From Mesorhizobium sp. L2C084A000 (GTDB lineage: Bacteria > Pseudomonadota > Alphaproteobacteria > Rhizobiales > Rhizobiaceae): DNA of 64,000 nt. Shown here in pieces: positions 5,347 to 30,962 of this stretch. The stretch's first letter is position 1. Every line of letters begins with the position of its first letter. The notes under the pieces are model-generated. The model saw only the letters and a program-made list of their open reading frames with translations, had not been told where the DNA came from and searched no databases. The stretch is taken from the NCBI RefSeq assembly GCF_000502875.1, contig NZ_AYWX01000001.1:665672-729671 (forward strand), written 5' to 3'. A program made the translations under genes and the position numbers.

Positions 5347-5521
5347 TTCGACCTCTTGTTTGGTGATCGAAGCGTCGCACCGCAGGCGATGGAAACAAAG
5401 AAAACGCCATCCCTTTCGGTGGCAGGTGGGGAAATTCCAGTATCGCTCGGGCAAGACGGACAGCGCGTTTTTGTTAATTCTACAAGATTGGTAGATTTGC
5501 CCTGCGACCGGTATCACGCCT
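5347..5521. promoter_or_regulatory. Upstream region of the oxygenase-sulfhydrylase-transporter operon
   Basis: A 175-base gap between two minus-strand units. It holds a 17-bp inverted repeat, TCTAC-N7-GTAGA, at 5479-5495. On the minus strand the right part of this repeat gives TAGAAT, a plausible -10 element reading toward the oxygenase gene. I see no clear -35 element. A regulator bound here could control the sulfur operon; this is inference. Confidence 0.45.
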
Positions 5522-7998: not shown

Positions 7999-8002
7999 CG
8001 CC

Positions 8003-8998: not shown

Positions 8999-10576
8999 CT
9001 ATTTCGCCAGCCAGACATCGGCGAAGTTTTCATCTGTGCCGAGACCGGTCGCGATCAGATTGTGAACCTTGGTTCGGTAGAGCGTCGGAAAGACGATGTC
9101 GTGCGTCCAGATGAGCGGCACGTCGGCGGAGATGATCTTCTGGGCTTGCGAATAGAGCGCCTTGCGCTTGTCGAAGTCGTTCTCATGGGCGGCGTCGGCC
9201 AGCAGTCTGTCGACCTCGGGGTTGGAATAGCCATGGACATTGCCGCCGGTCGTGCCCGCATTGTCGCCTTCGAGCGTGGTGTAGGCATAGCTGATGCCGA
9301 TTGCCGGGTCGGGGGTGGTGTAGACAAAGTTTTCGGCAAGATCATAGTCGAAGGTGGTCAGCCGCTTGAACCAGCCCGGCACGTCGGTCGCCACGATGTT
9401 GACCTTGATGCCGACAGACGCCAGCGCCTCCCGGACATATTCCGCCTCGCGCTGCCACAGCTCGCCATAAGGCAGCGGAACGAACTGCAGTTCGAAGCGC
9501 ACGCCGTTGGCGTCGGGCTTCAGGCCGGCCTCGTCGAGGATGGCGTTCGCCTTGGCCAGGTCGAATTCATATTTCGTTTCGACCGATGTGTCCTTGAACC
9601 GCGACAGACGCGACAGCGGGCCGTTGGTCTCGTGGCCGAATCCACCAAAGATCGTGTCGATGATGAACTGGCGGTCGATCGCATGCGCGATCGCCCGGCG
9701 CACCCGCGCATCGTCGAGCGGCTTGTGGCGGTTGTTGAGGTGGATGTAGCCGACCGGTTGAAGAAATTCCCAGCCTGCCTCGGTCAGTTGCACGCCATCG
9801 AGCCCGGCCAACCGCGTAATGTCGAAGTTCTCGACGTCGCCTGCGCGCAGCACATCCACCTGACCGGTTTCGAAAGCGATGGCGCGGCTGTTGGCGTCAG
9901 GGATGACGTGGAAGAAGATGTCGTTCAGATGGGGCTTGCCGGCATCCCAATAGTCAGGGTTGCGGACAAGGTGGATGAAGGACCCCTTCTTCCACTCGGC
10001 GAATTTGAACGGCCCGGTGCCGATGAACTTGCTGTTTGCCTCGGCGGTGCGAAAGTCGCTCACCCCTTCATAGAGATGGGCCGGCAGCACGGCGGTGTTG
10101 TGGACGTAGATAAAGGCTGGGTACGGCGCCTTGAGCGTGAACACCACGGTGTGGTCGTCCGGCGTGGCGATGCCCTTCACCTCCGCCAGGTTGAGTCGCG
10201 AGCGGGCCTGAAGTGCCGGCAGAAACTTCTGGAAGCTGAACACCACGTCCTTGGCCGTGAACGGCTGGCCGTCATGCCATTTTACATCGCGGCGCAGGTT
10301 GAAGGTGTAGACGAGGCCGTCATCCGAAATCGACCAGCTTTGCGCCAGGCGCGGCAGCGGCTTCAGATCGGCCGAATAGGTCAACAGGCTCTCGTAGATC
10401 TTGTTGCCGACATAGGTCGTCGGCCCGAGGCGATTGACGCCGATATTGACCGTCGGCGGCTCAGGCTGGACGATCAGGTTGAGCGTCCCGCCCGCCTCCT
10501 GTGCCGCAAGTCCGGTCAGCGTCAGAAGCGTGGCTGCCAGAGACAGCATGATGGTTCGCAACAGGCGGGAGATCAT
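8999..10576 (-). CDS. Peptide-type ABC transporter substrate-binding protein (DppA/OppA family)
   Basis: Periplasmic binding protein of 525 aa (SBP family 5). A Sec signal peptide runs to about residue 25 (LTLTGLAAQEAGG). The cluster-C motif appears as LAQSWSISDDGLVYTFNLRRDVKWHDGQPFTAKDV in several short blocks, and YIHLNNRHKPLDDARVRRAIAHAIDR is also typical. The ATG at 10576 is preceded by AAGGTG. The first gene of its operon, it has a 238-base upstream region with a likely promoter. The ligand cannot be read from the sequence; peptides, glutathione-like thiols or other sulfur compounds are options. Confidence 0.92.
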   Translation of the reverse strand: MISRLLRTIMLSLAATLLTLTGLAAQEAGGTLNLIVQPEPPTVNIGVNRLGPTTYVGNKIYESLLTYSADLKPLPRLAQSWSISDDGLVYTFNLRRDVKWHDGQPFTAKDVVFSFQKFLPALQARSRLNLAEVKGIATPDDHTVVFTLKAPYPAFIYVHNTAVLPAHLYEGVSDFRTAEANSKFIGTGPFKFAEWKKGSFIHLVRNPDYWDAGKPHLNDIFFHVIPDANSRAIAFETGQVDVLRAGDVENFDITRLAGLDGVQLTEAGWEFLQPVGYIHLNNRHKPLDDARVRRAIAHAIDRQFIIDTIFGGFGHETNGPLSRLSRFKDTSVETKYEFDLAKANAILDEAGLKPDANGVRFELQFVPLPYGELWQREAEYVREALASVGIKVNIVATDVPGWFKRLTTFDYDLAENFVYTTPDPAIGISYAYTTLEGDNAGTTGGNVHGYSNPEVDRLLADAAHENDFDKRKALYSQAQKIISADVPLIWTHDIVFPTLYRTKVHNLIATGLGTDENFADVWLAK

Positions 10577-10814
10577 CGTGAATTCACCTTGTCGAGTAAT
10601 TGATCGCGGAGCCTGAGATGTCGCTCCGCAGGAGAGTGTGGCTCCACCGAATGACGCGGCCGATCTGCTTGCGAATTGCGGTGCGAATTTGTGTAGTAAG
10701 ATTATAGACAAAGGGGATTATGATAAGGGAACATGCTTCATCGATGTCAGCCAGAGCGAATATTTTTCCCAATATCCGTGCTGAAATGAGAGCGAATTGC
10801 CTGATGGCGGGCGG
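10577..10814. promoter_or_regulatory. Upstream region and candidate promoter of the first peptide-type importer
   Basis: A 238-base non-coding gap before the binding-protein gene on the minus strand. A perfect TATAAT lies on the minus strand at 10706-10701, about 125 bases before the start codon, with only a weak -35 match (TTCCCT) 19 bases further up. The area around it (about 10685-10740) is AT-rich compared with the genes on both sides. The left half shows nothing I recognise. Confidence 0.5.
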
Positions 10815-11807
10815 TCACGACAGGCTCGCCGGGTCGCGCCATCTGGTTGTGATGTCGACGGCGAAGGTGCAGAACACGAACGATGCCGCGGCGAAGATCG
10901 TCGTCCCGATGACGACCGGAAAATCGCCTTCAAGCGCCGAGTTGATCGCCAGCCGGCCGACGCCGTCCAATCCGAAGATCGTCTCCGTGACGATCGCCCC
11001 ACCCATGATGACGGCAAGCTCCAGGCCACCCAGCGTGATCACCGGATTGAGCGCGGCCTTCAACGCATGATCGTAATAGACCCGCCATTCCGGAACACCC
11101 TTGGCGCGCGCCGTCCTTATGTAGTCCTCGCCCAGAACCTCAAGCATGCTTGCGCGGATCAGCTGCTGGAAAATGCCGATCTCGGCAAGTGCCAGCGTCA
11201 GCCACGGCAGGGCCAGATGCCGGGCCCATTCGAACGGATCTTTCGTCAGCGGCACATAACCGCTGCTTGGAAACCAGAAGACCCCATGGTTGGAGAGCTG
11301 GAAGAACAGGAAATAGGAGATCAGGATGCCGGAGAGGAACGTCGGCACCGACAGGCTCGCATAGGCGAAGCCCGATATCAGCCTGTCCAGCCAGGAGCCC
11401 TGCCGGCGCGCGGCAATCACGCCAAGCAGGATCGACAGCGTCATCCAAATGACGACGGCACCAAGGGCGAGCGAAAGCGTCACCGGCACCTTGGACAGGA
11501 TGAGGTCTGTCACCGGTGTCTGCTTGCGGAAGGAGTAGCCCAGCGCCGGCGGCCAGTGAGCGATCCCCATCGGCGCGCCCTGGATGTCGGGGCCGCGGTA
11601 GAGATAGTACCACAACTGCAGATACCATGGCTCGTTGAGCCGCAGCGCGTGTGCTATGGCATCGATCGCCTGCTGGCTGGCGTTGCGCGGCGCCAGCATC
11701 GCGGCCGGATTGCGATAGGCTATGCGGGTGATGAAGAACGCGATCACCAGCACGATCAGCAGCGTCGAGAGCGCCCGGAAGATCAGCCCGCCTGTGTGCC
11801 GGATCAT
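10815..11807 (-). CDS. Peptide-type ABC transporter permease (DppB family), second system
   Basis: Inner-membrane permease of 330 aa. The first helix is followed by a periplasmic loop that includes RLNEPWYLQLWYYL, a family hallmark. The EAA loop reads DYIRTARAKGVPEWRVYYDHALK and the tail has ETIFGLDGVGRLAINSALEGDF. It is the last gene of the second importer, whose order is binding protein, ATPase, permease C, permease B, so the permeases come last rather than second. The start follows the DppC stop by 4 bases. Confidence 0.92.
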   Translation of the reverse strand: MIRHTGGLIFRALSTLLIVLVIAFFITRIAYRNPAAMLAPRNASQQAIDAIAHALRLNEPWYLQLWYYLYRGPDIQGAPMGIAHWPPALGYSFRKQTPVTDLILSKVPVTLSLALGAVVIWMTLSILLGVIAARRQGSWLDRLISGFAYASLSVPTFLSGILISYFLFFQLSNHGVFWFPSSGYVPLTKDPFEWARHLALPWLTLALAEIGIFQQLIRASMLEVLGEDYIRTARAKGVPEWRVYYDHALKAALNPVITLGGLELAVIMGGAIVTETIFGLDGVGRLAINSALEGDFPVVIGTTIFAAASFVFCTFAVDITTRWRDPASLS

Positions 11808-11811
11808 GGCG

Positions 11812-12769
11812 TCACCCGCTGCGGCGATGGGGGTCGAGGACGTTGCGCAGGCCAGCGCTCAGCGTGTTGAAGCCGGCCACAGTCAGAAACAGCGCGATGC
11901 CGGGTCCGAGCAGGAACCATGGCTGCAACTGGTAGAGGGATGAGCGCTGCGCCTCGGCGATCATATTGCCCCAGCTCGGCTGCGGCGCCTGCACGCCGAC
12001 GCCGAGGAAGGAGAGCGTCGCTTCGGCGATGATGTTGGTCGGCAGTTGTACCGCCCAGTAGACCAGGATGACCGGCGCGATGTTGGGCAGGATCTCGCGC
12101 ATGATGATCCTGGCCTTCGAGGCGCCGATCGTCTGCGCGGCTTCCACCAGCGGGCTGCGGCGCAGGACAAACACCAGGCCACGCGTCAGCCGGGCAAAGT
12201 AGGTCCAGGAAAACAGGGTTATGATCAGCACCACCACCAGGGAGGGCGCAACAAACGGCTTGCCATCGACGCCCCGGTTCAGCGACAGGAGGCTGAGCGC
12301 GGTGACGATGAACGGGAACGACAAAGCGACGTCCACCGCCTGCGAAATGACGCGGTCGACGCGACCGGCAAGAAATCCGCTGACGAGGCCGATGGCGGTG
12401 CCGATGATCATGGCAAGCGTGGTCGCCGGGATGGCGATGGCCAGCGATACGCGCGCGCCGTAGAGCGTTCTGACCAGCACGTCGCGGCCGTTGCCGTCGG
12501 CGCCAAGTGGAAATTCGAACGTGGGGCCAGTCGGCAGTCCCATCTCGGTCAACGCCGTATCGCGGAACTGCTCCGTCACCCCGTGCCCCAGCAGCCACGC
12601 GACCACTGGCGCCAGCAGCGCACCGGCGGTGACGAAGCCTATGATCAGCGCGCCGATGCGAAAGGACCGTTCGCGCAGCAGCGCTCGCAGAAGCAGCGAC
12701 CTGTAGGAATTCACCACCTCGCCATGCCCCAGCAGGACGTGGTCCTGGACGGACGCCAGGGCACGGATC

Positions 12770-12777
<8 letters not shown>
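11812..12777 (-). CDS. Peptide-type ABC transporter permease (DppC family), second system
   Basis: Inner-membrane permease of 321 aa. After an N-terminal helix near 40-65, the segment FPLGADGNGRDVLVRTLYGARVSL matches the DppC signature in which a freshly entered domain contacts the channel; the EAA loop contains EAAQTIGASKARIIMREILPNI. The start ATG at 12777 overlaps the end of the ATPase gene by 8 bases. The protein has about 35 extra N-terminal residues compared with the DppC of the first system. Confidence 0.91.
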
Positions 12778-14416
<1,639 letters not shown>

Positions 14417-14445
14417 GCGCGCCTCCTTTTGCCGGTCCGGCCTTG

Positions 14446-16203
14446 CTACTGCTTGAGAGCGATGTTGGTGATGTCGGCATTGACCGCCAGCGACGACCAC
14501 ACCCAGTTGGCGAGGCGATCGGAAGTGACCACGACCTTGCGCTTCTCGAACAACGGAATCCACGGCAGGTCGGCGGAGACGAGCTTGTCGGCCTTGGTCC
14601 AGATCGGCCCCGGATCGTCGGACGGATAGGCCTGCGCCGCTAGCTTGTTGAGTTCCGGATTGCTGTAGCAAATGGCGTGGACGTTGCCGGTGCCGCAAGG
14701 TGCCGCGTCCGAATTCAACCAGCCGCCAAGCAGCATGCGCGTGCTCGGTCCCTGCCAATCCGGGGAGAATGTTCCGCCCAGGGAAAGATCCCAACGGCTC
14801 TTCGGATCCTGGATGAAGGCGTACCACTGTGTCGGCGGGATCGGGATCAGGTTGAGCGTGATACCCGCTGCTTCCAGATCCTCCTTCGCGGTCACCGCAA
14901 TCGCTTCGAACTGTGCGTTGCCGCGATAGATGGCGTCGAAGGCGATGCCGTTCGGATAGCCTGCCTCGGCAAGCAATTGCTTGGCCTTGGCCGGATCGCC
15001 CCTGTAGCTCTCGGTCGGGTACGGATCGAACTTCTCGAAACCAAGGATGGTCGAGGTGATGATCTGGGTGAGCGGCACGGCGCCGATCGAACCGGCCTGG
15101 GTCTGCGCCAGATGTTCGCGGTTCACCGCATAGGTCAGCGCCTGCCGGACCTTCAGCTTGCGCAGCGCCTCGGTCCCGTCGCTCTTGACCTCCGGCCGCT
15201 GGTTGAAGGTGATGAAGTTCGCCGATCCACTGTTCGTCACATGGATGTCGGGGCTCTTCTGCGACAGGAAGCGCTGGATCGTCGGAATGGGCGGGATGTC
15301 GAGATAGAGCGACAGATCAGCCTCACCGGCGATGATCTTCTGGACGACGCTGTCCTCGCTGTTGGCGGTGAAATCGATGTCGATCTCATCGGCATAGGCC
15401 TTGCGCGCCTGGTCGGACTCCGGCTTGAAATTCTTTGCCTTCTTCAGGACCAGCTTCTGACCCTGCTCGTAGGTGTCGACATAGTAAGGGCCGCTGGACG
15501 GCAGGTTCTTGCGCGACTCCAGCGAGTCCGGGAAATATTTAGACGCGATCTCAGGCGCCACCGGCGACACGAAATTCATCGAAAGGATGTTGAGGAAGTC
15601 GTAGTTCTTGGTGTCCGACTTGATGACCAGCGTGTGCTCGTCGGGAGCCGAGACGCCGGCAATCTCGTGCGTGTCGGTGAAAGCCTTGGTCGCCGCGAGA
15701 TCGCCTGTCCGCACTTTCGCGAATTCCTTGCAATAGTCGACGAAGCCGGAGATCACGAGGTTGAAATAGTTGATGGCGGCGACCTGCTTGTTGGGATCGC
15801 AGAAGCGCTTGACGCCATAGACGAAATCGCTGGCGACGATCTTGCGCTCGAGGCTGCCGGAGAAGAACACGTCGTCCTTCAAATGGAAGGTGTAGACCTT
15901 GCCGTCGTCGCTGATGTCCCAGGACTTGGCGAGATCCGGCACGAGCGTGGTGTCCTCCTTGAGGCCGGCTGGCGAGCCGGGATAGGTCACCAACTGGCGC
16001 GTTGTCGCGCGCAGGATTTCCCAGGAATCGATGCTGTAGCCGGTGAGCGGATCGAACGCATCGAGATCGGACTGGATCGAAGCAATCCGCAGGACCCCGC
16101 CATGTTTCAGATCTTCCGCTTGCGCGGATGAACCAAGAACAGAAATCGACAGAATGCCACCTGCAATTCCCAATAATAACTTACGCGCAACATGTGTTGT
16201 CAT
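14446..16203 (-). CDS. Peptide-type ABC transporter substrate-binding protein, second system
   Basis: Periplasmic binding protein of 585 aa, on the long side for SBP family 5. The signal peptide ends near residue 29 (GSSAQAED). The mature part has LAKSWDISDDGKVYTFHLKDDV and KVRQALTYAVNREHLAQ, two family blocks. Five or six cysteines near CDPNKQ, DYCKEF and APCGTGNVHAICYS may form disulfides in the periplasm. A ribosome site GGAGAGAAG lies 4 bases before the ATG. It is the first gene of the second importer, next to the flavin monooxygenase operon. The ligand is unknown. Confidence 0.92.
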   Translation of the reverse strand: MTTHVARKLLLGIAGGILSISVLGSSAQAEDLKHGGVLRIASIQSDLDAFDPLTGYSIDSWEILRATTRQLVTYPGSPAGLKEDTTLVPDLAKSWDISDDGKVYTFHLKDDVFFSGSLERKIVASDFVYGVKRFCDPNKQVAAINYFNLVISGFVDYCKEFAKVRTGDLAATKAFTDTHEIAGVSAPDEHTLVIKSDTKNYDFLNILSMNFVSPVAPEIASKYFPDSLESRKNLPSSGPYYVDTYEQGQKLVLKKAKNFKPESDQARKAYADEIDIDFTANSEDSVVQKIIAGEADLSLYLDIPPIPTIQRFLSQKSPDIHVTNSGSANFITFNQRPEVKSDGTEALRKLKVRQALTYAVNREHLAQTQAGSIGAVPLTQIITSTILGFEKFDPYPTESYRGDPAKAKQLLAEAGYPNGIAFDAIYRGNAQFEAIAVTAKEDLEAAGITLNLIPIPPTQWYAFIQDPKSRWDLSLGGTFSPDWQGPSTRMLLGGWLNSDAAPCGTGNVHAICYSNPELNKLAAQAYPSDDPGPIWTKADKLVSADLPWIPLFEKRKVVVTSDRLANWVWSSLAVNADITNIALKQ

Positions 16204-16326: not shown

Positions 16327-17544
16327 TCAAAACATTGTTCCGGAATGAGGCAAGGCCGGCGCCGTGAACAGCGTGTCGAGCGTTTCGACCGCAGCCCGGT
16401 CGAAGTCGCCGAGGCGCCCCGTCTGCGCGAGCTGCCACCACTTCACGCCGCCGAGATAGGCCGCCGAAACCGCGGCCACGTCCGTCACCACGGCGGCGGA
16501 CAGATTGGTGCGCTCGGCTCCTTCTGGCGAGAGGCGCAGCCTGGTCGCGTTCTCGGGCAGGATGGCATCGGAGACTTCCAGCACGACGCTGCCCTGCCCG
16601 GCATAGGACCGGGCTGTAAGAGCCTTTTCAGCGTCCAGGAGCCGCAGCCATGTTTCGTCGCGCGCCGCCGAAACGCGAACGCTTCGAAAATCCTCGAACA
16701 GCCACGGCAGCAGATCGTCCGCGGGACGGCTCCAGAAGACGATGCGATGCGGCAGGTCGACCGCCAGCAGATGTGCGACCAGCGCGACATAGGCGGCCGG
16801 ACTGTAGGCCACGATATCATCGACCACGATGGTGCGTTCCGAGCTGGTGAACCAGCTGTCGAGGCCGACAGGGTGATAGCGCACGAACCCGGTTTCCGAA
16901 CCGTTGTCGCCGTGAACGGCGACGTAGTTAGGCGTGCCGCTGTGCGTCTGGCGCAACGCCTGAAAATCCCACCAATAGGCCGAGCGTGTGATGACGCCCG
17001 CGCGCGAAACAGGCTGATCCGCGTAGATGCGCGCCTGTATCGCCCAGGCATCGTCGCTGTCGATCAGCCGAATCTTGTCGGAGTACGTCAGCCCTGCCCG
17101 CAGGCGCGCGCGCTGGGTGTCGACTTCCAGGCTGACAGAAGTATTGGCGATCGCATAGCCAAAGTTGCCGTAGATGCGCGCGTCGGAGGCCCGCAAGGTG
17201 GCCGCCGCCTCGCCCTGTTCGCGCGCGGCGCGCAGCTGCGCCTTGAACAGCGCCGTGGCGGCGCCACGCCGCGTATGGGTGGGCAGCACGCCGACATGGG
17301 TGACCGCGGCCTGCGGCAACCAGGCGCCGCCGGGAACCGCGATCCGTCCCGAATAGGAGTCGGTTGTGCCAACGAGCGTCTCGCCGTCGAAGGCGCCCCA
17401 GGTGCGATCCGGCTCGAACAGTCTGTCGATCAGCGCGTCGTCGATCGGGCCGAGCGGCGGCAGGCCGACCATGGCCGTGCGGAAGGTGCGTGCGGCCTGC
17501 GCGAGTTCGGCCTTCCCGGTCAGCAGGCGCACATCCGATATCAT
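16327..17544 (-). CDS. GNAT acetyltransferase, Eis family
   Basis: An acetyl-CoA-dependent N-acetyltransferase of 405 aa with the Eis three-part layout: N-terminal GNAT, a second GNAT-like domain and a C-terminal sterol-carrier-like domain. The acetyl-CoA loop is VGVLPTHTRRGAATALF near 84-100. The IYGNFGY segment at 124-130 carries the tyrosine expected to act as general acid, and the chain ends in Phe, whose free carboxylate acts as base in known Eis proteins. Eis enzymes acetylate amines such as aminoglycosides or peptides. Here it is the last gene of a six-gene flavin monooxygenase operon (ATGA overlap with the previous gene), so the amine target is probably a small sulfur-containing compound; this is inference. 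Confidence 0.88.
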   Translation of the reverse strand: MISDVRLLTGKAELAQAARTFRTAMVGLPPLGPIDDALIDRLFEPDRTWGAFDGETLVGTTDSYSGRIAVPGGAWLPQAAVTHVGVLPTHTRRGAATALFKAQLRAAREQGEAAATLRASDARIYGNFGYAIANTSVSLEVDTQRARLRAGLTYSDKIRLIDSDDAWAIQARIYADQPVSRAGVITRSAYWWDFQALRQTHSGTPNYVAVHGDNGSETGFVRYHPVGLDSWFTSSERTIVVDDIVAYSPAAYVALVAHLLAVDLPHRIVFWSRPADDLLPWLFEDFRSVRVSAARDETWLRLLDAEKALTARSYAGQGSVVLEVSDAILPENATRLRLSPEGAERTNLSAAVVTDVAAVSAAYLGGVKWWQLAQTGRLGDFDRAAVETLDTLFTAPALPHSGTMF

Positions 17545-18803
17545 GATGCCTTCCGCGTGGGCACGGCTTCAGGCTTGTGCGCTTCCGGCTGCGGCGGCTG
17601 CGCATAGGTTCGCGGTCTCGGCAGCGTTTCGGCCAGCAGATATGTGCCGACCTCGCGCGCCCGGTAGGAGACCGGATCGTGGACGGTATGGGTGCGCGCG
17701 TTGCGCCAATAGATGTCGAGGCCATATTTGTTGGCCGTCGAGCGCGCGCCCGTCGCTTCGAAGATGCGCGCCGTCACGTCGAGCACGACGTCGTTGGCGA
17801 CGATCTTGCCCTGGTCGATGATCGTTGCGAGTTCGCCCCATTGCTGCGCCGTCACCGACGCTCCGGCATGCAGTGCCGCCTCGTAAAGCGCCGCGGCCTT
17901 GTCGGCGATTGCTACGCCCGCCGCAATGCCGGCGGATAGCCGGCCGAACAGCACCAGATGGTAGGGATCGTCGATCGCCCGTTCCAGCCCGGACTCCGGC
18001 CAGGGCCGGCCGAAGCGGCGGACATGATCGGCGGCGGCGGCAAGAGCGCCCTCGGCGATGCCGAGATAGAAATTGATGAAGATGAGCTGGCTGAACAGGA
18101 CGCGCAGGCCGTCGCGCAATTCGACATCGCCCTCATAATCGTCGAGGGCGCTGAGCAGCTCATCCTCGAAGACTTCGACACGGTCGAAAGTGACACTGCC
18201 GCTCGCCGTCAGTCTCTGGCCGAGATTGTCCCAGTCGCCGCCGAAGCTGATGCCCTTGCGCGTCGGCGGGATCTGATAGTGAGCGCGTTTGCCGTTGTCC
18301 CAGAGGCTGACGGTGATGACTTGGGCCACCGAGGCGCCGGTTGCGAAGGTGCGTCTGCCGTTCAGGAAGCGGCGGTCGCCGACATGCTCGATCTCGTTCC
18401 ACTGGTCGCGCGGGTTGCTGACGCCGCCCTGGAACCAGCCTTGTGCGCCGACGCCACGCGCCGTCTTTTCCCACTGCTGACGCGTGCCGAGAATGTAAGT
18501 CCAGACACCGTTGGAATAATGATACGCGATCAGTTGTCCGATCGAGCCGTCGGCGGCCGCGATGATGCGGCTGATCTTGAGCGCCTGGACGAGGTTTGCG
18601 CCGGCGCCGCCGAATTCGCGTGGCGCAGCCAAGCCGAGCAGGCCGCTTTCGCGCAGCAGCGCCAGTTCTTCCACCGGGTCCTTGTTTGCCCGGTCGCGTT
18701 CGAGCGCCGTTGCCGCGAGTTGCCGCGCCACGTCGCGGGCCTTCTCGGCCCAGGTCTCGAATTCGGCGTCGCTGAGGCCCGGATAGATCTGAATGTCCGA
18801 CAT
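17541..18803 (-). CDS. Acyl-CoA dehydrogenase-fold flavin monooxygenase (DszC/SfnC-like)
   Basis: About 420 aa with the acyl-CoA dehydrogenase fold: N-terminal helical domain, beta domain (FATGASVAQVITVSLW near 150) and C-terminal helical domain. Enzymes of this branch, such as DszC and SfnC, use reduced flavin and oxygen for S- or N-oxygenation rather than CoA-ester oxidation. GDWDNLGQRLTASGSVTFDRVEV and the TGARSTANKYGLDIYWRNARTHTVHDPV ending are typical of that branch. The likely start is ATG at 18803; an ATG at 18824 would add 7 residues. It is paralogous to the gene at 21429-22667. It sits between an SsuD-like monooxygenase and the Eis-like acetyltransferase. Confidence 0.85.
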   Translation of the reverse strand: MSDIQIYPGLSDAEFETWAEKARDVARQLAATALERDRANKDPVEELALLRESGLLGLAAPREFGGAGANLVQALKISRIIAAADGSIGQLIAYHYSNGVWTYILGTRQQWEKTARGVGAQGWFQGGVSNPRDQWNEIEHVGDRRFLNGRRTFATGASVAQVITVSLWDNGKRAHYQIPPTRKGISFGGDWDNLGQRLTASGSVTFDRVEVFEDELLSALDDYEGDVELRDGLRVLFSQLIFINFYLGIAEGALAAAADHVRRFGRPWPESGLERAIDDPYHLVLFGRLSAGIAAGVAIADKAAALYEAALHAGASVTAQQWGELATIIDQGKIVANDVVLDVTARIFEATGARSTANKYGLDIYWRNARTHTVHDPVSYRAREVGTYLLAETLPRPRTYAQPPQPEAHKPEAVPTRKAS

Positions 18804-18853
18804 TGTCTTCTCGTCATGCTCCATTGTCGCGACCACCAAAGGCCGCACATGTT

Positions 18854-19999
18854 TCAGGCTGCGAGCAGCCCCTTCGATTTCAAGACCGCCAGCGCGCCTT
18901 CGGCGAAATGATAGGCTTCCTCGACATGCGGCTGGCCCGACAGGATGAAGTGGTCGAAACCGACGGCGTGGTACTCCTCGATGAGCGACGCCACCTGCTC
19001 GTGGCTGCCGACGATCGCGGTGCCGGCGCCGCCGCGAACCAGGCCGTAGCCGGCCCACAGATGCGGCGATATTTCGAGATCGCGCACGCTGCGCGCGGTG
19101 AGCGCCGCGGTGCCGCTGTCGCTATGCAACGCGTTCATCCGGCGCTGGCCGGCCGATTCCGTGCGCGCCAGGATTGCCTGCGCCTGCGCGATCCGCTCCG
19201 GCGTCAGTCTCTCCAGCAGCCTCTCGGCCTCCTCCCAGGCCTGCGCCTCGGTATCGCGACTGATGACATGCAGGCGTATGCCGAAGCTTAGTTTGCGGCC
19301 CTGCGCGGCGGCGAGTTCCCGCACATGGCCTATCCGGGCAGCCTCGGTTGCCGGGCTCTCGCCCCAGACCAGATAGGTGTCGACATGGCGCGCGGCGACC
19401 GCTTGCGCAGCACCACTTGCGCCACCGAAGAAGATATCGGGAAGCGGCCATTTGCCGAAATCGATCTGGGCGCCTTCGATGTCATAGTGCTTTCCCCTGA
19501 AATCGAAGCGCCGGCCCGAACCGGCTGGCAGGACCACGCCGCGCAGGATCTCGAGGAACTCTCCCGTGCGTTCATAGCGCTGGTCGTGGCCGAGATGATC
19601 GCCGAAGCGTTTCTGCTCCCGCGGATCGCCTCCGGTGACGACGTTGAGCAGCAGCCGCCCACCCGATATGCGCTGAAGGGTCGCCGCCTGGTGGGCGACC
19701 AGCGTCGGCGAGATCAGGCCGGGACGGAAGGCGACGAGGAACTTCAACCGCGTCGTGACCTGCGCCAGTGCTGCCGTGACTATCCAGGCATCCTCGCACC
19801 AGGTTCCGGTCGGCGTCAGCACGGCTTCGAAGCCTAACGTCTCCGCGGTCTTGGCGACCAGCGAGAGATAATCGAGGCTCGCTTCCCGAAACCGCGATCG
19901 TGACGGGCCGTTGCCGAGATGGGAATCATCGCCAGAGCCGACGATTTCCCGGCTGTCGCCGTTGGTCGGCAGATACCAGTGGAGATGGATGCCGCTCAC
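18854..19999 (-). CDS. LLM class flavin-dependent alkanesulfonate monooxygenase-like protein (SsuD type)
   Basis: 381 aa, the usual SsuD length. The start IHLHWYLPTNGDSR and the region FLVAFRPGLISPTLVAHQAATLQRISGGRLLLNVVTGG, seen in short blocks, match SsuD; SsuD uses FMNH2 and O2 to cleave alkanesulfonates to an aldehyde and sulfite. The GDHLGHDQRYERTGEFLEIL stretch is also typical. ATG at 19999 overlaps the preceding gene as ATGA. The protein needs reduced FMN from a partner reductase that is not encoded here. Confidence 0.88.
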   Translation of the reverse strand: MSGIHLHWYLPTNGDSREIVGSGDDSHLGNGPSRSRFREASLDYLSLVAKTAETLGFEAVLTPTGTWCEDAWIVTAALAQVTTRLKFLVAFRPGLISPTLVAHQAATLQRISGGRLLLNVVTGGDPREQKRFGDHLGHDQRYERTGEFLEILRGVVLPAGSGRRFDFRGKHYDIEGAQIDFGKWPLPDIFFGGASGAAQAVAARHVDTYLVWGESPATEAARIGHVRELAAAQGRKLSFGIRLHVISRDTEAQAWEEAERLLERLTPERIAQAQAILARTESAGQRRMNALHSDSGTAALTARSVRDLEISPHLWAGYGLVRGGAGTAIVGSHEQVASLIEEYHAVGFDHFILSGQPHVEEAYHFAEGALAVLKSKGLLAA

Positions 20000-21420
20000 T
20001 CGGCCGCCTCGACGATGGTACCCCAGTTCGAGCGGTCGCGTGCGGCTGTTCCCGGGTGGTCGTCGCGCAGCAGCCGCTGGCCCGCTCCCTGGAAGCGCTC
20101 GCGGATCGTGGTGCCGGGCGCGCCACGTTCCCGGATGCGACCCCGCCGCCGCAGCTCCGGGACGACGAATTCGATGAAGTCCTCGAACGTGCCCGGACTG
20201 ACGACATAGGCCAGGTTGAAGCCGTCGACGCCGGATTCATCGGCGATGCGTTCGAGCTCGTCGGCGATCCTCTGCGGTGAGCCGACCAGCTTGGGATGGA
20301 TGCCGCCGAGCCCGATATACTCGGCGATCCCGGCCACGGTCCAGCGCCGGTCGGCATCGATCCGCGTCAGATTGGCAAGGGCTGAACGGCCGGCATTTGT
20401 CTCGATATATTCGAGCGGGTGGTCGAGTGGGTATTGCGACCAGTCGACGCCGGTCCATGCCGAAAACAGCGCCAGGGCCGCTTCGACACTGGTGTAGGAT
20501 AGATAGTCCTTGTGCTTGGCCTCGGCCTCTTCGTCCGTGGCTCCGGTGATGACGGTGACCGCGGTGATAAACTTTATCGCATCCGGCGCCCGTCCGAGTT
20601 CGACGGCGCGGGCACGGATCGCCTCGACCGAGCGGCGGATGGAGGCCGTGCTGGTGCCGCCGAGGAACACCACCTCGCCGTTGCGAGCAGCGAATTCGCG
20701 CCCGCGCGGCGAGGTTCCCGCCTGGAACAGAAGCGGCGTGCGCTGCGGACTGGGCTGCGCGAGATGCGCGCCGGGCACGGAGAAATATTTGCCGTGATGG
20801 CCGATCGGATGGACTTTGGAAGGGTCGGTGTAGAGCCCCTTCTCGCGATCGTGCACGACCGCCCCGTCCTCCCAGGATCCCTCCCAGAGCTTGTAGGTGA
20901 CATCCAGGAATTCCTGCGCCAGATCGTAACGCTCGTCATGGTCGATCTGGCGCTCCAGGCCGAGATTCTTCGCCGCCGATTCCAGAACCGAGGTGACGAC
21001 GTTCCAGGCGATGCGGCCCTTGGTCAGATGATCCAGCGTGGTGAACTTGCGGGCCAGGAGATAGGGCTGCTCGTAAGTGGTCGACACGGTGATGCCGAAG
21101 CCGAGATGCCTGGTGGCGGCGGCCATTGCCGAGACCAGCAGCAGCGGGTCGTTGACCGGCGACTGGGCTGCGGTGCGCAGCGACGCATCCGGTGTCCCCC
21201 GGAAGACATCGAGGTGGCCAAGCGCGTCAGCGAGGAACAGCGCGTCGAAGCCGCCGTCGTCGAGCAGCTTGGCCAGCGAGGTCCAGTATTCGAGGCTGGT
21301 GTAGGTGTTGGCGCGGTCGCTCGGATGACGCCAGAGGCCCGCCGACACGTGACCGACCACGGTCATACCGAAGCCGTTGAGGATGAGAGGCTTGACCGCC
21401 TTATGGGTGGAACTTGCCAT
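19996..21420 (-). CDS. LLM class flavin-dependent monooxygenase (NtaA/DmoA/SnaA family)
   Basis: 474 aa, typical for the NtaA/SnaA/DszA/DmoA branch of luciferase-like monooxygenases. Blocks ILNGFGMTVVGHVSAGLWRHP at the start, STTYEQPYLLARKFTTLDHLTKGRIAWNVVTS, and PVLFQAG-like LLFQAGTSPRGREFAARN support this. Members oxidise dimethyl sulfide, dibenzothiophene sulfone or chelators. The ATG at 21420 is preferred; a GTG at 21432 would overlap the upstream stop as GTGA. It is a paralog of 22664-24073 and the two alternate with the DszC-like genes in the operon. Confidence 0.9.
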   Translation of the reverse strand: MASSTHKAVKPLILNGFGMTVVGHVSAGLWRHPSDRANTYTSLEYWTSLAKLLDDGGFDALFLADALGHLDVFRGTPDASLRTAAQSPVNDPLLLVSAMAAATRHLGFGITVSTTYEQPYLLARKFTTLDHLTKGRIAWNVVTSVLESAAKNLGLERQIDHDERYDLAQEFLDVTYKLWEGSWEDGAVVHDREKGLYTDPSKVHPIGHHGKYFSVPGAHLAQPSPQRTPLLFQAGTSPRGREFAARNGEVVFLGGTSTASIRRSVEAIRARAVELGRAPDAIKFITAVTVITGATDEEAEAKHKDYLSYTSVEAALALFSAWTGVDWSQYPLDHPLEYIETNAGRSALANLTRIDADRRWTVAGIAEYIGLGGIHPKLVGSPQRIADELERIADESGVDGFNLAYVVSPGTFEDFIEFVVPELRRRGRIRERGAPGTTIRERFQGAGQRLLRDDHPGTAARDRSNWGTIVEAAE

Positions 21421-21428
21421 GCTTCGGC

Positions 21429-22667
21429 TCACGAATAGTAGGTTGGCGGCGGCACACGGCCGTTAAGCGCGAAGTCACCGACTTCCAGCACCTTGTAGTG
21501 GACGGGATCATGCAGGCTGTGGGTGCGGACGTTGCGCCAGTAGCGGTCGAAGCCGAACGAGCGCGCCGTCGAGCGGGCGCCGGTGAGCTCGAATATCCGC
21601 GACGTCACTTCTAGGGCGACCTCGGTCGAATGCACCTTCGACTGGTAGGCGATTGCCGCGGCATGGCCACGCTCTTCCGCGGTGAGATCCCTGCCTCGCT
21701 CGAAGGCGCGCTGCACGGCCTCGCCGGCGGCGTCCGCGAGCGCCTGCGCGGACGCCAGCGCGATCGAAAGCCGGCCGAAGCGCTCGACAACCAGCGTGTC
21801 CTCGGAGGCTTTCTTTGCCGGCGAGGACAGCCATGGCCTGCCGCGTTGGGTGATGTAATCCCTGGCGTCTTCCAGGGCGGCAAGGGCGGTGCCGAGATAA
21901 AGTTCGCCGAAGGCTGCATGAACGATCGGCACATGCAGCGTGGCATGCGGCGGATGAACCGTATCATCAGGCCAATGCCCGACCAGATCGTCGGCGGATG
22001 CGGCGACATTTTCGAGCGCCGCACTGCCGCTCACCGTCAGCCTCTGGCCGATATTGTCCCAGTCATTGCCGAAGCTGAGGCCGGACGTGGGGTTGGCGAC
22101 GATGAACTGGCCGATATGACCGCTGGCATCGGTGCCGGCGATCCGCGTGCTCCCGGCAAAGCGCACCCAGACCTGCAGCGTGTCGGCCACCTGCGCACCA
22201 CTGGTGAAAGGCTTGGCGCCGTTGAGCACGAAACCGCCGTCCACCTGCCTCGCCTCGACAAGCGGCTCATAGGCGGCCTGCGCGATGCCGGCATGAAACC
22301 AGCCCTTGGAGAGAAAGCCTTGAAGCCGTCTTTCGATCAGGGACTTGTTGTCGCCGTCCAATCCGATTGCCGTGCCGAAGAGATGGTAGATGACGATCTG
22401 GGCTATCGATGTATCGCCCCTGGCCAGGATGCGGACGATCCTGAGCACTTCGGCCGGCGTCGCGCCACCGCCGCCAAATCGCTTGGGAATATAGATCGTC
22501 AGCAGGCCGGCCAGACGCAAAAGGTCTATCTCGGCATGCGGGGCGGCCCCGGCCAGATCGCGCGCGGCCGCGGTGCGCTTGAGCTCGCGTGCCACCTCCT
22601 CGGCCTTCTCGGCCCAGCCCTGGAAATCGCTGCGCTGCTCGCGCTGAACGGTGGCGTGGATGGTCAT
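21429..22667 (-). CDS. Acyl-CoA dehydrogenase-fold flavin monooxygenase (DszC/SfnC-like), second copy
   Basis: 412 aa, same fold and layout as the gene at 17541-18803. Recognisable blocks are FTSGAQVADTLQVWVRF, GNDWDNIGQRLTVSGSAALENV, and the end TGARSTARSFGFDRYWRNVRTHSLHDPV. It lacks a clear acyl-CoA dehydrogenase glutamate context, in line with an oxygenase role. ATG at 22667 overlaps the NtaA-like stop as ATGA. Its pairing with an LLM monooxygenase mirrors DszC-DszA in dibenzothiophene desulfurisation, where one flavoenzyme oxidises sulfur and the other cleaves the C-S bond. Confidence 0.87.
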   Translation of the reverse strand: MTIHATVQREQRSDFQGWAEKAEEVARELKRTAAARDLAGAAPHAEIDLLRLAGLLTIYIPKRFGGGGATPAEVLRIVRILARGDTSIAQIVIYHLFGTAIGLDGDNKSLIERRLQGFLSKGWFHAGIAQAAYEPLVEARQVDGGFVLNGAKPFTSGAQVADTLQVWVRFAGSTRIAGTDASGHIGQFIVANPTSGLSFGNDWDNIGQRLTVSGSAALENVAASADDLVGHWPDDTVHPPHATLHVPIVHAAFGELYLGTALAALEDARDYITQRGRPWLSSPAKKASEDTLVVERFGRLSIALASAQALADAAGEAVQRAFERGRDLTAEERGHAAAIAYQSKVHSTEVALEVTSRIFELTGARSTARSFGFDRYWRNVRTHSLHDPVHYKVLEVGDFALNGRVPPPTYYS

Positions 22668-24073
22668 GATGCCAACGCCTCCGGCCGGCGGACCTGCGAG
22701 AAGGCATGCCGCGCCGCCGGATGATCGGCGGGCGGGCGGCTGTCACGCCCGAAGAGCCTGGAGCGCAGCGAGGGACCGAGATCCTCGCGAAGGCGCCCGC
22801 GCCGCCGCAACTCGGGAACGACATAGGCGGAGAAATCGATGAAGCTGCCGGGGCTGACCACATGCGTCAAATTGATGCCGTCGGTATCGGTGGCTTCCAG
22901 CCATTGCTCGAGCTCGTCGGCAACGGTCTTCGGACCGCCGACAAACGACTTGCCGCGCCCAAAACCGCCCTCCGGGGAAAACGCCTGGCGCAAGGTCCAC
23001 TGGCGGCCCGACGACGGGTCATCGAACATGCGCAGCAGGGAGCGGTTGGAATCGGTTTCGGTGTAGCGGATAGGCTGGTCGAGATCGTGCCTGGAAAAAT
23101 CGATGCCGGTCGCTGCCGAATAATGCACCAGCGCGCCTTCGACATCGTAGTGCGACCTGTAGTCAGCGAGCTTGGCGGCCGCGGCGGCGTCGGTTTCATC
23201 CGTGATCACCGAGACCGCGGATATGAACTTGATGCTGCCTGGAGCCCTGCCTTCATCGCGGGCAAGCCGCTTCACCTCAGCGACATTGTGGCGGATGCCA
23301 TCGACATCGGCACCGGCGACAAAGACCACCTCCGCGTGACGAGCGGCAAAGCGCTGGCCGCGCGGCGAACCGCCCGCCTGGAACAGCACCGGCACCCTCT
23401 GCGGACTGGGCTCCGAGAGATGCGGACCCGGAACGTTGAAGTAGCGACCGGAATGACCGATCGGATGGACCTTTTCCGGATCGGTATAGAGACCGTCCGG
23501 GTTGGCGGCGCTGCCGCGATCACGCACCAGGGCACCGTCTTCCCAGGAACCCTGCCAGAGCTTGTAGGCGACATCCATGAACTCGTCGGCGGTCTCGTAG
23601 CGCTCGTCATGCGCCACCTGCCTGTCGAGACCGAGATTGCGCGCCGCGCTGTCGAGCTGCGAGGTGACGACGTTCCAGGCGATCCGCCCCTTGGTGAGAT
23701 GATCGAGCGTGGTGAATTTGCGCGCCAGCAGATATGGCTTTTCGTAGGTCGTCGAAACGGTGACGCCGAAACCCAGCCGGCTTGTCGCGCCGGCAAGCGC
23801 TGAGACCAGCAACAGCGGATCGTTGACGGGGGACTGCACGCCCTTTGCCAGCGAGGCGTCGTATCCACCGCCATAGACGTCGAGAAGGCCCAGCGCGTCG
23901 GCGATGAACAAGCAATCGAAGCCGCCCTCCTCCAGTGCTTTGGCAAGTTCGATCCAGTAGTCGAGCTCGGCATGTCGATAGGCCTGGTCGGCCGGATGAC
24001 GCCAAAGGCCGTAGGCGACATGGGAGACGGCATTCATGGTGAAGCCATTGAGAATAATAGGAGATTTTGCCAT
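22664..24073 (-). CDS. LLM class flavin-dependent monooxygenase (NtaA/DmoA/SnaA family), first gene of operon
   Basis: 469 aa. Starts SPIILNGFTMNAVSHVAYGL and repeats the LARKFTTLDHLTKGRIAWNVVTS and PVLFQAGGSPRGQRFAARHAE blocks of its paralog at 19996-21420. The ATG at 24073 gives the expected N-terminus; the open frame upstream is not supported. It heads a six-gene operon reaching 16327, in which most junctions overlap by 4 bases, so stoichiometric expression is likely. Reduced flavin would come from a reductase elsewhere. The exact substrate is unknown. Confidence 0.9.
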   Translation of the reverse strand: MAKSPIILNGFTMNAVSHVAYGLWRHPADQAYRHAELDYWIELAKALEEGGFDCLFIADALGLLDVYGGGYDASLAKGVQSPVNDPLLLVSALAGATSRLGFGVTVSTTYEKPYLLARKFTTLDHLTKGRIAWNVVTSQLDSAARNLGLDRQVAHDERYETADEFMDVAYKLWQGSWEDGALVRDRGSAANPDGLYTDPEKVHPIGHSGRYFNVPGPHLSEPSPQRVPVLFQAGGSPRGQRFAARHAEVVFVAGADVDGIRHNVAEVKRLARDEGRAPGSIKFISAVSVITDETDAAAAAKLADYRSHYDVEGALVHYSAATGIDFSRHDLDQPIRYTETDSNRSLLRMFDDPSSGRQWTLRQAFSPEGGFGRGKSFVGGPKTVADELEQWLEATDTDGINLTHVVSPGSFIDFSAYVVPELRRRGRLREDLGPSLRSRLFGRDSRPPADHPAARHAFSQVRRPEALAS

Positions 24074-24414
24074 ATGACAACCCAGACAAACGCGCTCAGC
24101 ACGGGATCGATCTTTGTCTATGGATTTAGTGTAATTCAAAGCATCGCGCGTGGAGATTTTTCCTAAAGATCGCGGTGTTTGTGACAATCCATTACTGGAT
24201 GGTGTCGAAGCGGCCAGTGTCGAGCCGCATCACCAAGTTTGTCGTCAAGCCATGCGGACAATCCATGCCCAGCTTCGCCGAACTGCGGCAGCGCATGGCT
24301 GCCCTGGCGCGATGCGGCCCAGGGCGTTTCTCATCAATGTGGCATATAAGCACCGCGGGAGTGCAAAAACGGCGCGATAGTTTCAGATCCTGCCAGCCGA
24401 ATTGAGGGAACCAC
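24074..24414. promoter_or_regulatory. 341-base intergenic region before the flavin monooxygenase operon
   Basis: No convincing gene is present; open frames on the plus strand here (for example 24150-24380) lack a good ribosome site and look like chance. The right end follows the mannonate dehydratase stop. The left end, nearest 24073, should hold the operon promoter. A GC-rich imperfect hairpin (GCCCTGG at about 24299-24305 with CCAGGGC at about 24319-24325) is visible but has no T-run, so I do not call it a terminator. Confidence 0.5.
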
Positions 24415-29768: not shown

Positions 29769-30962
29769 ATGTCGTCCGACTCCCAGTCGTCTGCCAACAC
29801 GCTCGTCGTCCGCAATATCGGTCTCATGCTGAGTGGCGATCTCGCACAACCGATCATCGACGCCGACACCATCGTCGTGAGCGATGGACGCATCACCAGC
29901 ATTGGCAAGGCAGGCGACATTGATGGCGGCAGCGCGGCGACGATCATCGATGCGATGGGCTGTGCGGTCTCGCCGGGTCTTATCGATAACCACGCCCATC
30001 CGGTGGCCGGCGACTGGACGCCTCGGCAGAACCAGATCGGCTGGATGGATTCGACTGTGCATGGCGGCGTCACCACCATGATCTCGGCGGGTGAAGTCCA
30101 CACGCCGGGCCGACCGCGCGACCTTGTCGGGCTGAAGGCGCTGGCGATCGCTGCCCAACGCACCTTCTCCAACTTCCGTCCGAACGGCATGAAGATCCTG
30201 GCCGGGGCACCGATCCTGGAACCCGGCCTTACCGAGGAAGACTTCCGCAGTCTCGCCGAGGCCGGCGTGACGCTTGTCGGCGAGGTCGGACTTGGCGGCG
30301 TCAAGGACGGGCCGACCGGCCGGCAGATGATCGCCTGGGCGCGCAAATACGGCATGACCTCGATGACCCACACGGGCGGTCCATCCCTGCCCGGCTCCGG
30401 CCGCATCGGCGCGGATGTCGTGCTGGAGGTCGACGCCGACATCGTCGCGCACGTCAATGGCGGGCCAACCGCCCTGCCCGACGCGGAAATACGGCAGATC
30501 TGCGAGAAGGGCTCGAGGGCGCTTGAAATCGTCCATAACGGCAATTTGCGCACCGGACTGTTCGTGCTCGACCTGGCAAGGCAGCGCGGCGAACTTTCGC
30601 GCGTCATCCTCGGCACCGACAGCCCGGCCGGATCCGGCGTGCAGCCGCTTGGCATCCTGCGAACCCTGACCATGCTGGCTTCGCTGGGTGGTATCGCGCC
30701 GGAAGTGGCGTTCTGTCTTGCCAGCGGCAACACGGCGCGTGTGCGCGGACTGGATGATCGCGGCATCATCGAGGCCGGTCGCGCCGCCGACCTGATCTTC
30801 ATGGATCAAGCGATCGGCGGTGCCGGCGACGGGCTGCTCGACAGCGTGGCGCTGGGCAATCTTCCAGGCATTGGAATGGTCGTCATCGACGGCGTGGTGC
30901 GGACCGGCCGGAGCAGAAATACGCCTCCGGCGATGCGGGTGCCGGAAGTCCTGGCGGCCTGA
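29769..30962 (+). CDS. Enamidase-like amidohydrolase
   Basis: 397 aa, amidohydrolase superfamily. The metal-binding histidines H75 and H77 are in DNHAHP, E172 lies in VGEVGLGG, H201 in MTHTGG, H228 in AHVNGG and D284 in LGTDSPAG. The pattern of VHTPGRP, VGEVGLGG, MTHTGG and NGGPTA resembles enamidase of nicotinate-fermenting Eubacterium barkeri, which opens 6-oxo-1,4,5,6-tetrahydronicotinate. Here the ring could differ. It follows the MarR gene by 44 bases and ends 3 bases from the convergent AA_synth gene. Other heterocycle hydrolases of this superfamily remain possible. Confidence 0.85.
   Translation: MSSDSQSSANTLVVRNIGLMLSGDLAQPIIDADTIVVSDGRITSIGKAGDIDGGSAATIIDAMGCAVSPGLIDNHAHPVAGDWTPRQNQIGWMDSTVHGGVTTMISAGEVHTPGRPRDLVGLKALAIAAQRTFSNFRPNGMKILAGAPILEPGLTEEDFRSLAEAGVTLVGEVGLGGVKDGPTGRQMIAWARKYGMTSMTHTGGPSLPGSGRIGADVVLEVDADIVAHVNGGPTALPDAEIRQICEKGSRALEIVHNGNLRTGLFVLDLARQRGELSRVILGTDSPAGSGVQPLGILRTLTMLASLGGIAPEVAFCLASGNTARVRGLDDRGIIEAGRAADLIFMDQAIGGAGDGLLDSVALGNLPGIGMVVIDGVVRTGRSRNTPPAMRVPEVLAA

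Follow-up and report, generated by a model that had tools for sequence, protein, structure and literature searches.

An Operon of Flavin Monooxygenases and an Eis-like Acetyltransferase in Mesorhizobium sp. L2C084A000 as the Probable Catalytic Half of an Organosulfur-Scavenging System

Introduction

A good part of soil sulfur is organic, and the range of organosulfur compounds that bacteria can use is incompletely known. Among the flavin monooxygenases, DszC-type enzymes belong to group D and luciferase-like monooxygenases (LLM) to group C. In a described dimethyl sulfide pathway, group D enzymes form the S–O bonds and one reductase powers all of the monooxygenases (PMC13352529). In Bacillus subtilis, S-alkylcysteines are reported to be acetylated before S-oxidation and C–S cleavage and then deacetylated (PMC10863075, PMC12757645). 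In Mycobacterium abscessus, the acetyltransferase gene eis1 is MAB_4124 (PMC6839843, PMC6143652). The present work concerns a six-gene operon (positions 16327–24073, minus strand) within a stretch of 64,000 nucleotides of Mesorhizobium sp. L2C084A000 (contig NZ_AYWX01000001.1, positions 665,672–729,671), which is referred to below as the window. The operon probably encodes the catalytic half of a system for sulfur scavenging, in which an amine-bearing organosulfur compound would be imported, N-acetylated, oxygenated at the sulfur and cleaved at its C–S bond. The enzyme classes and organosulfur islands as such are known; the new features are the combination of an Eis-like acetyltransferase with a family 5 solute-binding protein (SBP5), an altered SsuD and exchangeable oxygenase sets, and no published description of the gene set was recognised by title or abstract in the open-access literature searched.

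Results

Operon Structure

Read 5' to 3', the operon begins with NtaA1 (22664–24073), a flavin mononucleotide (FMN) monooxygenase of the NtaA/DmoA family that is predicted to cleave C–S bonds. It is followed by DszC1 (21429–22667), a DszC/SfnB/MsuC-like FMN monooxygenase with a predicted S-oxygenating function, NtaA2 (19996–21432), a paralogue of NtaA1, a module-specific SsuD-like monooxygenase (18854–19999), DszC2 (17541–18803, or starting at 18824), a DszC-like relative of MAB_4123, and an Eis-like GNAT (GCN5-related) N-acetyltransferase (16327–17544). The start chosen for NtaA1 is backed by conservation that reaches the ATG in five Mesorhizobium sequences. All genes lie on the minus strand and overlap by 4 bp at four of the five junctions, in line with the single direction and mostly 4-base overlaps noted in the initial annotation, and a gap of 50 nt separates SsuD from DszC2 if the latter starts at 18803. 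The enzyme families named there (two NtaA/DmoA-type, two DszC-like, one SsuD-like and one Eis-like) were likewise recovered. The reported double alternation of LLM and DszC-like genes was not: SsuD sits between NtaA2 and DszC2, which leaves no two successive pairs. SsuD and the acetyltransferase had been placed after the pairs; SsuD precedes DszC2, and only the GNAT is the last gene.

Conservation and Distribution of the Module

The Eis-like GNAT and the importer encoded directly downstream on the same strand form a stable core, and the flavin monooxygenases around them are exchanged between genomes. The importer consists of the solute-binding protein SBP5a (14446–16203; PF00496, 215.6 bits), the fused ATP-binding cassette (ABC) ATPase OppDFa (12770–14440, 5' end approximate; two PF00005 matches) and the permeases OppCa (11812–12777; PF00528) and OppBa (10815–11807; PF00528 and PF19300), all on the minus strand. 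It had not been tied to the operon in the initial annotation; together with Eis, it is the most conserved part among the relatives compared.

Fourteen relatives were used for the comparison, from which L010 (its contig ends within SsuD and agrees so far), L016 (a 25% match without the module) and G1452 were kept out. Eight of them carry the full set of NtaA1, DszC1, NtaA2, DszC2 and Eis (Mesorhizobium G1410, G1403 and G1419, two mutually close Labrys, a Rhizobium metagenome-assembled genome (MAG), Pararhizobium and Paracoccus), and as their order is also kept in these eight loci, the arrangement is more than chance. SBP5a and its OppDF occur in 13/14, and the module SsuD occurs in six (G1431, the Rhizobium MAG, Paracoccus, Pantoea, K84 and RAC02). 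Pantoea carries NtaA2, SsuD, DszC2 and Eis plus a relative of NtaA1 on the opposite strand, while K84, RAC02 and G1431 have SsuD and Eis and no four-gene set in the fetched stretches. Near Eis/SBP5a, the loci of G1431, RAC02 and Rhodococcus instead contain another trio, in which a DszC-like protein is joined by a strongly diverged LLM-like one and an NtaA-like one (L073:4461–8058 in Mesorhizobium, L057:1409–4906 in Sinorhizobium and L055:2813–6460 in Rhodococcus). The proteins of this trio are 80–90% identical between G1431 and RAC02, 35–65% identical to those of Rhodococcus and at most about 38% identical to the window proteins.

The presence of DszC1, DszC2 and Eis in these loci is partly due to selection because the loci were found with those genes as queries. 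The co-occurrence of SBP5a and Eis on plasmids is a more independent check: in a plasmid collection, SBP5a relatives of at least 60% identity occurred in five records, each of which is one of the 14 that have an Eis relative, and none of the 11 records with a weaker SBP5a relative (31–35%) is.

These architectures bear on the possibility that the operon holds two independent DszC–DszA-like pairs, one substrate each, in which SsuD would complete the breakdown of sulfonates and the GNAT would be incidental. Two NtaA and two DszC enzymes are indeed present, and the closest relatives of DszC1 and DszC2 differ, which is compatible with different substrates. However, a lone NtaA–DszC pair of such kind was found in none of the 14 loci, as against eight with the complete four-oxygenase set, and Pantoea has both NtaAs but DszC2 only. 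Moreover, the GNAT looks integral rather than incidental because Eis and the SBP5a importer are retained while the oxygenase sets change. We consider two separate pairs unlikely.

The module is rare and patchy, yet conserved where present, as few matches to DszC1 and Eis were obtained in the sampled genomes. A DszC1 query against genome contigs gave seven loci, six of them at 60% identity or more. At an E-value of 1e-80, DszC1 was detected in 19 of 297 genomes of the family, two of which (own included) match at >60%; at 1e-120, the matches fell to 3/397 genomes of the order (own included) and 1/385 of the class (own). An Eis relative (1e-50) was detected in seven of 146 genomes of the genus, own included, and in one of 398 of the phylum, again the own genome. 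The module is located on a plasmid in Paracoccus and, in a reduced form, in Pantoea, which suggests that it has spread horizontally.

Relationships of the Monooxygenases

Both NtaA proteins exceed the cutoff of the NtaA/DmoA family model TIGR03860 (498.6 bits for NtaA1 and 542.4 for NtaA2; cutoff 279.7), and the best PDB match of both is the dimethyl-sulfide monooxygenase DmoA (6ak1; E 5.9e-147 and 3.4e-163, respectively). The alkane monooxygenase LadA comes next, and DszA, YtnJ and the nitrilotriacetate (NTA) and ethylenediaminetetraacetate (EDTA) enzymes are weaker. This ranking concerns a reading in which the locus serves to degrade chelator-like compounds as sources of carbon or nitrogen, in the style of NTA and EDTA monooxygenases with peptide-type importers. 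NTA-type enzymes do fall within TIGR03860, and SBP5 importers take peptides among other compounds; against this, of the full-length family matches of NtaA1 and NtaA2, those to the NTA and EDTA monooxygenases rank among the weakest, and the DszC-type partners, SsuD and MetY indicate sulfur. Chelator catabolism is, thus, extremely improbable.

The NtaA1 and NtaA2 sequences (10 rows each; 59% identity between the two) form sister clades with a Shimodaira–Hasegawa-like approximate likelihood ratio support (SH-aLRT) of 99, and DmoA and nine rhizobial LLM rows fall outside. DszC1 and DszC2 are only 38% identical. Both score far under the cutoff of 850 of the DszC equivalog NF043015 (268.3 and 259.8 bits) and under that of the SfnB equivalog TIGR04022 (255.6 and 257.4 bits; cutoff 430.9). 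The best PDB match of DszC1 is MsuC (6u76), followed by DszC, while that of DszC2 is 8cda (493 bits), an entry titled MAB_4123. An AlphaFold2 model of DszC2 (mean predicted local distance difference test score 78.0, built with six sequences) aligned to 8cda with Z 51.0 and a root-mean-square deviation of 2.2 over 389 residues at 56% identity, compared with Z 43.3 for MsuC and about 42 for TdsC/DszC.

The trees agree with these matches. DszC2 groups with 8cda in a 39-row tree (support 99) and in a second one of 25 of these rows, without the MsuC and DszC structures (100/100), and DszC1 joins rhizobial DszC proteins with weaker support (91 and 72/61, respectively); both trees carry long-branch warnings. 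With 8cda in the tree but outside the clade, an exclusive DszC1 + DszC2 clade was rejected by the approximately unbiased (AU) test (p 0.0004), whereas a wider clade of DszC1, DszC2 and 8cda against the other rhizobial DszC proteins was not (p 0.06). The simple copying of a DszC–DszA pair was, therefore, rejected. The operon looks assembled rather than copied, since the NtaAs are sisters and the exclusive DszC clade is not upheld. Of the duplication proposed initially, the NtaA part stands and the DszC part does not, and the proposed likeness to DszC–DszA is not supported, because the closest relatives differ between the two DszCs and the NtaAs resemble DmoA and LadA more than DszA.

The module SsuD scored 416.7 bits with the SsuD equivalog TIGR03565, under its cutoff of 518.2. 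Seven module SsuDs, compared without the near copy and fragments L083, L094, L095 and L097, group in one clade (100/100), separate from the 17 further SsuD/MsuD sequences included. All seven retain the equivalents of E. coli C54, W196, R226, H228, R297 and H333. The position of Y331 is Q in 7/7 and Y in all 17 others, W occupies position 53 in 7/7 and in none of the others, and H11 is replaced by N in six, with a gap in RAC02. Position 52 is T or S in all seven but is not diagnostic, because nine of the 17 others also depart from R. After the PH motif, all seven module SsuDs have a tail of 20–27 residues, compared with 37–51 in those 15 of the others whose ends are complete; the two PDB rows are truncated. 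In MsuD, the C-terminal arm is described as reaching into the active site of the neighbouring subunit, where it touches Y330, R296 and R51 (PMC8234197). The missing arm and the substituted Y330 position together suggest that the active site of the module SsuD is altered and perhaps more open. A genome whose module has no SsuD could still cleave sulfonates, since each of the 10 genomes searched carries one or more further SsuD relatives (E 1e-40) outside the module.

Two irregular ssuD genes were observed. The N-terminus of the module SsuD of RAC02 (Sinorhizobium sp., L057 about 10881) diverges from its relatives, possibly by a frameshift. In the own genome, the ssuD of a chromosomal ssuA–ssuD-type operon (C15:49239–50317) is split over two reading frames and may, therefore, be frameshifted or contain a sequencing error.

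Upstream Motif

In five Mesorhizobium genomes, roughly the last 120 bp before NtaA1 are common, with variable positions, and the sequences diverge further out. This block contains the candidate cis-element ACTAAATCCATAGAC (24116–24130, minus strand; 43–57 bp before the NtaA1 start), with one mismatch in G1419. A weaker copy with three mismatches lies upstream of the second importer of the island (10695–10709, plus strand, before SBP5b). The pattern ACTAAATYYATAGAC was found in 18 loci (521,422 bp) at 16 sites with up to two mismatches and 42 with up to three, compared with means of 0.7 (maximum 4) and 8.6 (maximum 20) for 60 column-shuffled patterns; some of the three-mismatch sites fall inside coding regions, and promoters that are orthologous do not count as independent.

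The own genome has three sites with at most one mismatch, located before the studied operon, before the ssuA–ssuD-type operon and before a set of redoxin, FAD (flavin adenine dinucleotide) protein and NMT1-type ABC importer genes. Eight further genomes gave nine such sites and none for the control: three at the counterpart of the studied operon, three at ssuA–ssuD operons, one beside a Labrys module and two unclear. The promoters of the operon itself are no test of the motif, as it was derived from them; the ssuA–ssuD sites do test it, though they are mutually orthologous. The motif is also present near several operons of a Rhizobium gallicum plasmid stretch; two of the eight further genomes, G1431 and G236, gave no match. 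The redoxin set (L117:4899–10414, C24 of the own genome), whose FAD protein is fumarate-reductase-like, is possibly a further organosulfur operon.

Eis-like Acetyltransferase and Its Mycobacterial Relatives

The GNAT matched PF13527, PF17668 and PF13530 above their cutoffs (Acetyltransf_9/17 and SCP2_2), i.e., GNAT domains with an SCP2-like C-terminal domain. Eis-type GNATs use a catalytic Tyr and the C-terminal carboxylate on a Phe; the Tyr of the IY motif and the C-terminal Phe are present in 16/16 Eis rows, and a second nearby Tyr in 15, either being a candidate for the catalytic residue. The best PDB match is 6yca (E 3.6e-82, 44% identity), listed as an uncharacterised N-acetyltransferase, which we take to be M. 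abscessus Eis1 (MAB_4124). In the Eis tree, 6yca pairs with the Rhodococcus Eis (98/93) and is nested within the module-linked proteins. The consecutive locus tags suggest that MAB_4123, the relative of DszC2, and MAB_4124 are neighbours; a literature search for 8CDA returned only unrelated texts.

In RNA sequencing data of an M. abscessus sigH mutant, MAB_4123 (log2 −4.92) and MAB_4122 (log2 −4.40) were decreased along with SsuA, SsuB, further genes for sulfonate transport and an alkanesulfonate monooxygenase gene (PMC13340314, Table 2). This is co-variation with sulfonate genes and not proof of sulfur control.

Some Eis-family enzymes are reported to acetylate aminoglycosides (PMC6143652), and the locus could accordingly detoxify an amine-bearing antibiotic or xenobiotic, which Eis would acetylate and the flavin enzymes oxidise, sulfur being irrelevant. 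This is very improbable given the SsuA-like, MetY and SsuD-like genes in the island, the motif common to ssuA–ssuD operons and the linked transporters, which are importers because they have binding proteins. Moreover, in drug tests, Eis2 proved to have a role in aminoglycoside resistance, while such a role could not be confirmed for Eis1 (PMC6143652).

Genomic Neighbourhood

Beyond the SBP5a importer, a second set of this type and sulfur genes follow on the minus strand: SBP5b (8999–10579, start approximate; PF00496, 311.5 bits), the permeases OppBb (8003–8980; PF00528) and OppCb (7156–8136, 5' end approximate; PF00528 and OppC_N), the ABC ATPase OppDFb (5522–7276, 5' end approximate; two PF00005 matches), a 2-oxoglutarate (2OG)-Fe(II) oxygenase of the DIOX_N type (4294–5604, 5' end approximate; PF14226 and PF03171), the O-acetylhomoserine sulfhydrylase MetY (2939–4264; TIGR01326, 583.6 bits, cutoff 495.1), an SsuA-like (NMT1) solute-binding protein (1844–2878; PF09084; TIGR01728 79.8 bits, under the cutoff of 163.5) and a permease (831–1835; PF00528) that is called SsuC-like for its adjacency to the SsuA-like gene. 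These Pfam and TIGRFAM matches confirm the MetY, 2OG oxygenase and sulfonate-type importer genes noted initially. Comparison of SBP5a and SBP5b with solved binding proteins pointed to no particular ligand.

No match to the flavin reductase families PF01613 or PF03358 was found in the window; their six and 12 genome matches, respectively, all lie outside it. A flavin reductase gene inside the window was, therefore, rejected, in agreement with the initial annotation as far as these two families are concerned.

To the left of the window, the island continues with another 2OG oxygenase, cystine-type transport genes, a third NtaA-family enzyme and a CurA-like reductase. The third enzyme, NtaA3, is YtnJ-like and is located with the cystine-type transport genes at L009:11043–15861; by tblastn, these transport genes were found in the G1419 stretch and not in those of G1410 or G1403. 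At window position 1 (L009:17672), a single N immediately precedes the first base of the window; it seems to be flanked by a short repeat and is probably an assembly joint.

The cystine-type genes draw attention to cysteine salvage from S-substituted cysteine or glutathione derivatives, as by the Cmo and Scm systems of Bacillus, in which the compound would be acetylated, S-oxidised, cleaved and deacetylated and the carbon part also recovered; this partly overlaps with the scavenging proposed here. NtaA3, beside these genes, has the structures 7e36 and YtnJ as its best matches, and the logic of an acetyltransferase, an S-oxidase and a C–S monooxygenase is common to both (PMC10863075, PMC12757645). 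However, NtaA1 and NtaA2 are nearer to DmoA and LadA than to YtnJ, and the GNAT is Eis-type, unlike the acetyltransferases of S-alkylcysteine salvage in Bacillus, which are short GNATs. Furthermore, no M20 deacetylase was found among the island proteins scanned with Pfam, which comprise all but a few small or overlapping open reading frames; within the window, the Pfam scans covered the proteins up to 35,056. Salvage of this kind is unlikely. Because no M20 deacetylase was found among these proteins, the carbon skeleton may be discarded and the sulfur alone kept. In Paracoccus, an M20 deacetylase is encoded two genes upstream, with one divergent gene in between. The window also contains an amidohydrolase-family gene (29769–30962), outside the operon and on the opposite strand, whose product could in principle be a deacetylase.

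Discussion

Sulfur acquisition is very likely the role of the system. The oxidation of several organosulfur substrates had been proposed initially; the organosulfur role is borne out by the enzyme families, the neighbourhood, the motif at ssuA–ssuD operons and the expression of MAB_4123, and the two duplicated pairs are not. In the scavenging system proposed here, the downstream importer would take up a fairly large amine-bearing organosulfur compound and the Eis-like GNAT would acetylate its amine. The DszC-type enzymes would then oxygenate the sulfur, from thioether to sulfoxide or sulfone and/or from sulfinate to sulfonate, and the DmoA-like NtaAs, with the modified SsuD where present, would cut the C–S bonds and free sulfite or a thiol. 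The sulfur would be assimilated, possibly via the MetY of the island, and reduced FMN would be supplied by reductases encoded elsewhere. That the pathway depends on acetylation has about an even chance. As the alternatives partly overlap with this scheme, the likelihoods given for them are not shares of a whole.

Several points weigh against it. The substrate class, acetylation as a needed step, the order of reactions and the induction by sulfur limitation are inferred. The module SsuD is missing from six of the eight full modules, and Mesorhizobium G1481 has Eis without SBP5a, another SBP5-type protein (27% identity to SBP5b) being encoded directly before Eis. The lack of an M20 domain among the scanned island proteins counts here too. 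The motif has no site with up to two mismatches in the Paracoccus, Pantoea, Rhodococcus, Rhizobium MAG, Pararhizobium and G1481 stretches. In the own genome, 11 sites at this threshold compare with four for the reversed control, and the eight with two mismatches have no recognisably sulfur-related gene downstream; over nine genomes, two of the 12 sites with at most one mismatch are unclear. In M. abscessus, MAB_4123, MAB_4122 and the sulfonate genes showed no significant difference between the sigH mutant and the complemented strain (PMC13340314), and the regulation of MAB_4123 in that study is indirect because complementation did not restore it; MAB_4124 is not among the genes of its Table 2. 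Finally, an eis1 mutant in macrophages lost about one log10 of colony-forming units at day 5, a modest loss of survival (PMC6839843) for which a sulfur role alone gives no explanation.

An importer and an acetyltransferase combined with exchangeable monooxygenases would, if the proposal is true, indicate that a class of sulfur source has gone unrecognised and would give Eis1 and MAB_4123 a testable role. A role in sulfur nutrition is suggested for a type of acetyltransferase, Eis, that is best known from mycobacteria, and the upstream element could be a regulatory motif of organosulfur genes in rhizobia.

Compared with the 4S pathway (DszABC), DszC-like and NtaA/DszA-family enzymes are likewise encoded in one operon, but the NtaAs are nearer to DmoA than to DszA and the DszC-model scores are far under the equivalog cutoff; no dszB was named among the proteins scanned, which include the NMT1-type protein at 1844–2878, and no search aimed at DszB was made. 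The dimethyl sulfide and sulfone sets (Dms1-3, SfnG, MsuC, MsuD and SsuD) share the S-oxygenating and C–S-cutting enzymes and depend on one shared reductase (PMC13352529), whereas the studied operon adds an acetyltransferase and oligopeptide-type importers and has an altered SsuD. The rhizobial plasmid islands of R. gallicum and R. etli contain the same enzyme classes (SfnB/DszC-like, LLM, and MetQ or SsuABCD) but, in the two stretches compared, have no annotated GNAT gene and other transporters.

The nearest tested logic, by analogy, is the S-alkylcysteine salvage of B. subtilis, whose CmoO/CmoJ and Scm/YxeK clusters also combine an acetyltransferase with S-oxidising and C–S-cleaving flavoenzymes (PMC10863075, PMC12757645); the studied operon differs from these clusters in its DszC-type enzymes, its Eis-type GNAT and the lack of an M20 deacetylase among the proteins scanned. 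In M. abscessus, MAB_4123 (8cda, 56%) and presumably Eis1 (6yca, 44%) are the closest solved relatives of DszC2 and the GNAT, and their locus tags are consecutive. We tentatively raise the possibility that Eis1-type acetyltransferases, including M. abscessus Eis1 (MAB_4124), are sulfur-nutrition enzymes that N-acetylate amine-bearing organosulfur compounds for exchangeable flavin-monooxygenase cassettes, in a modular acetylate–oxidise–cut desulfurisation found in two phyla.

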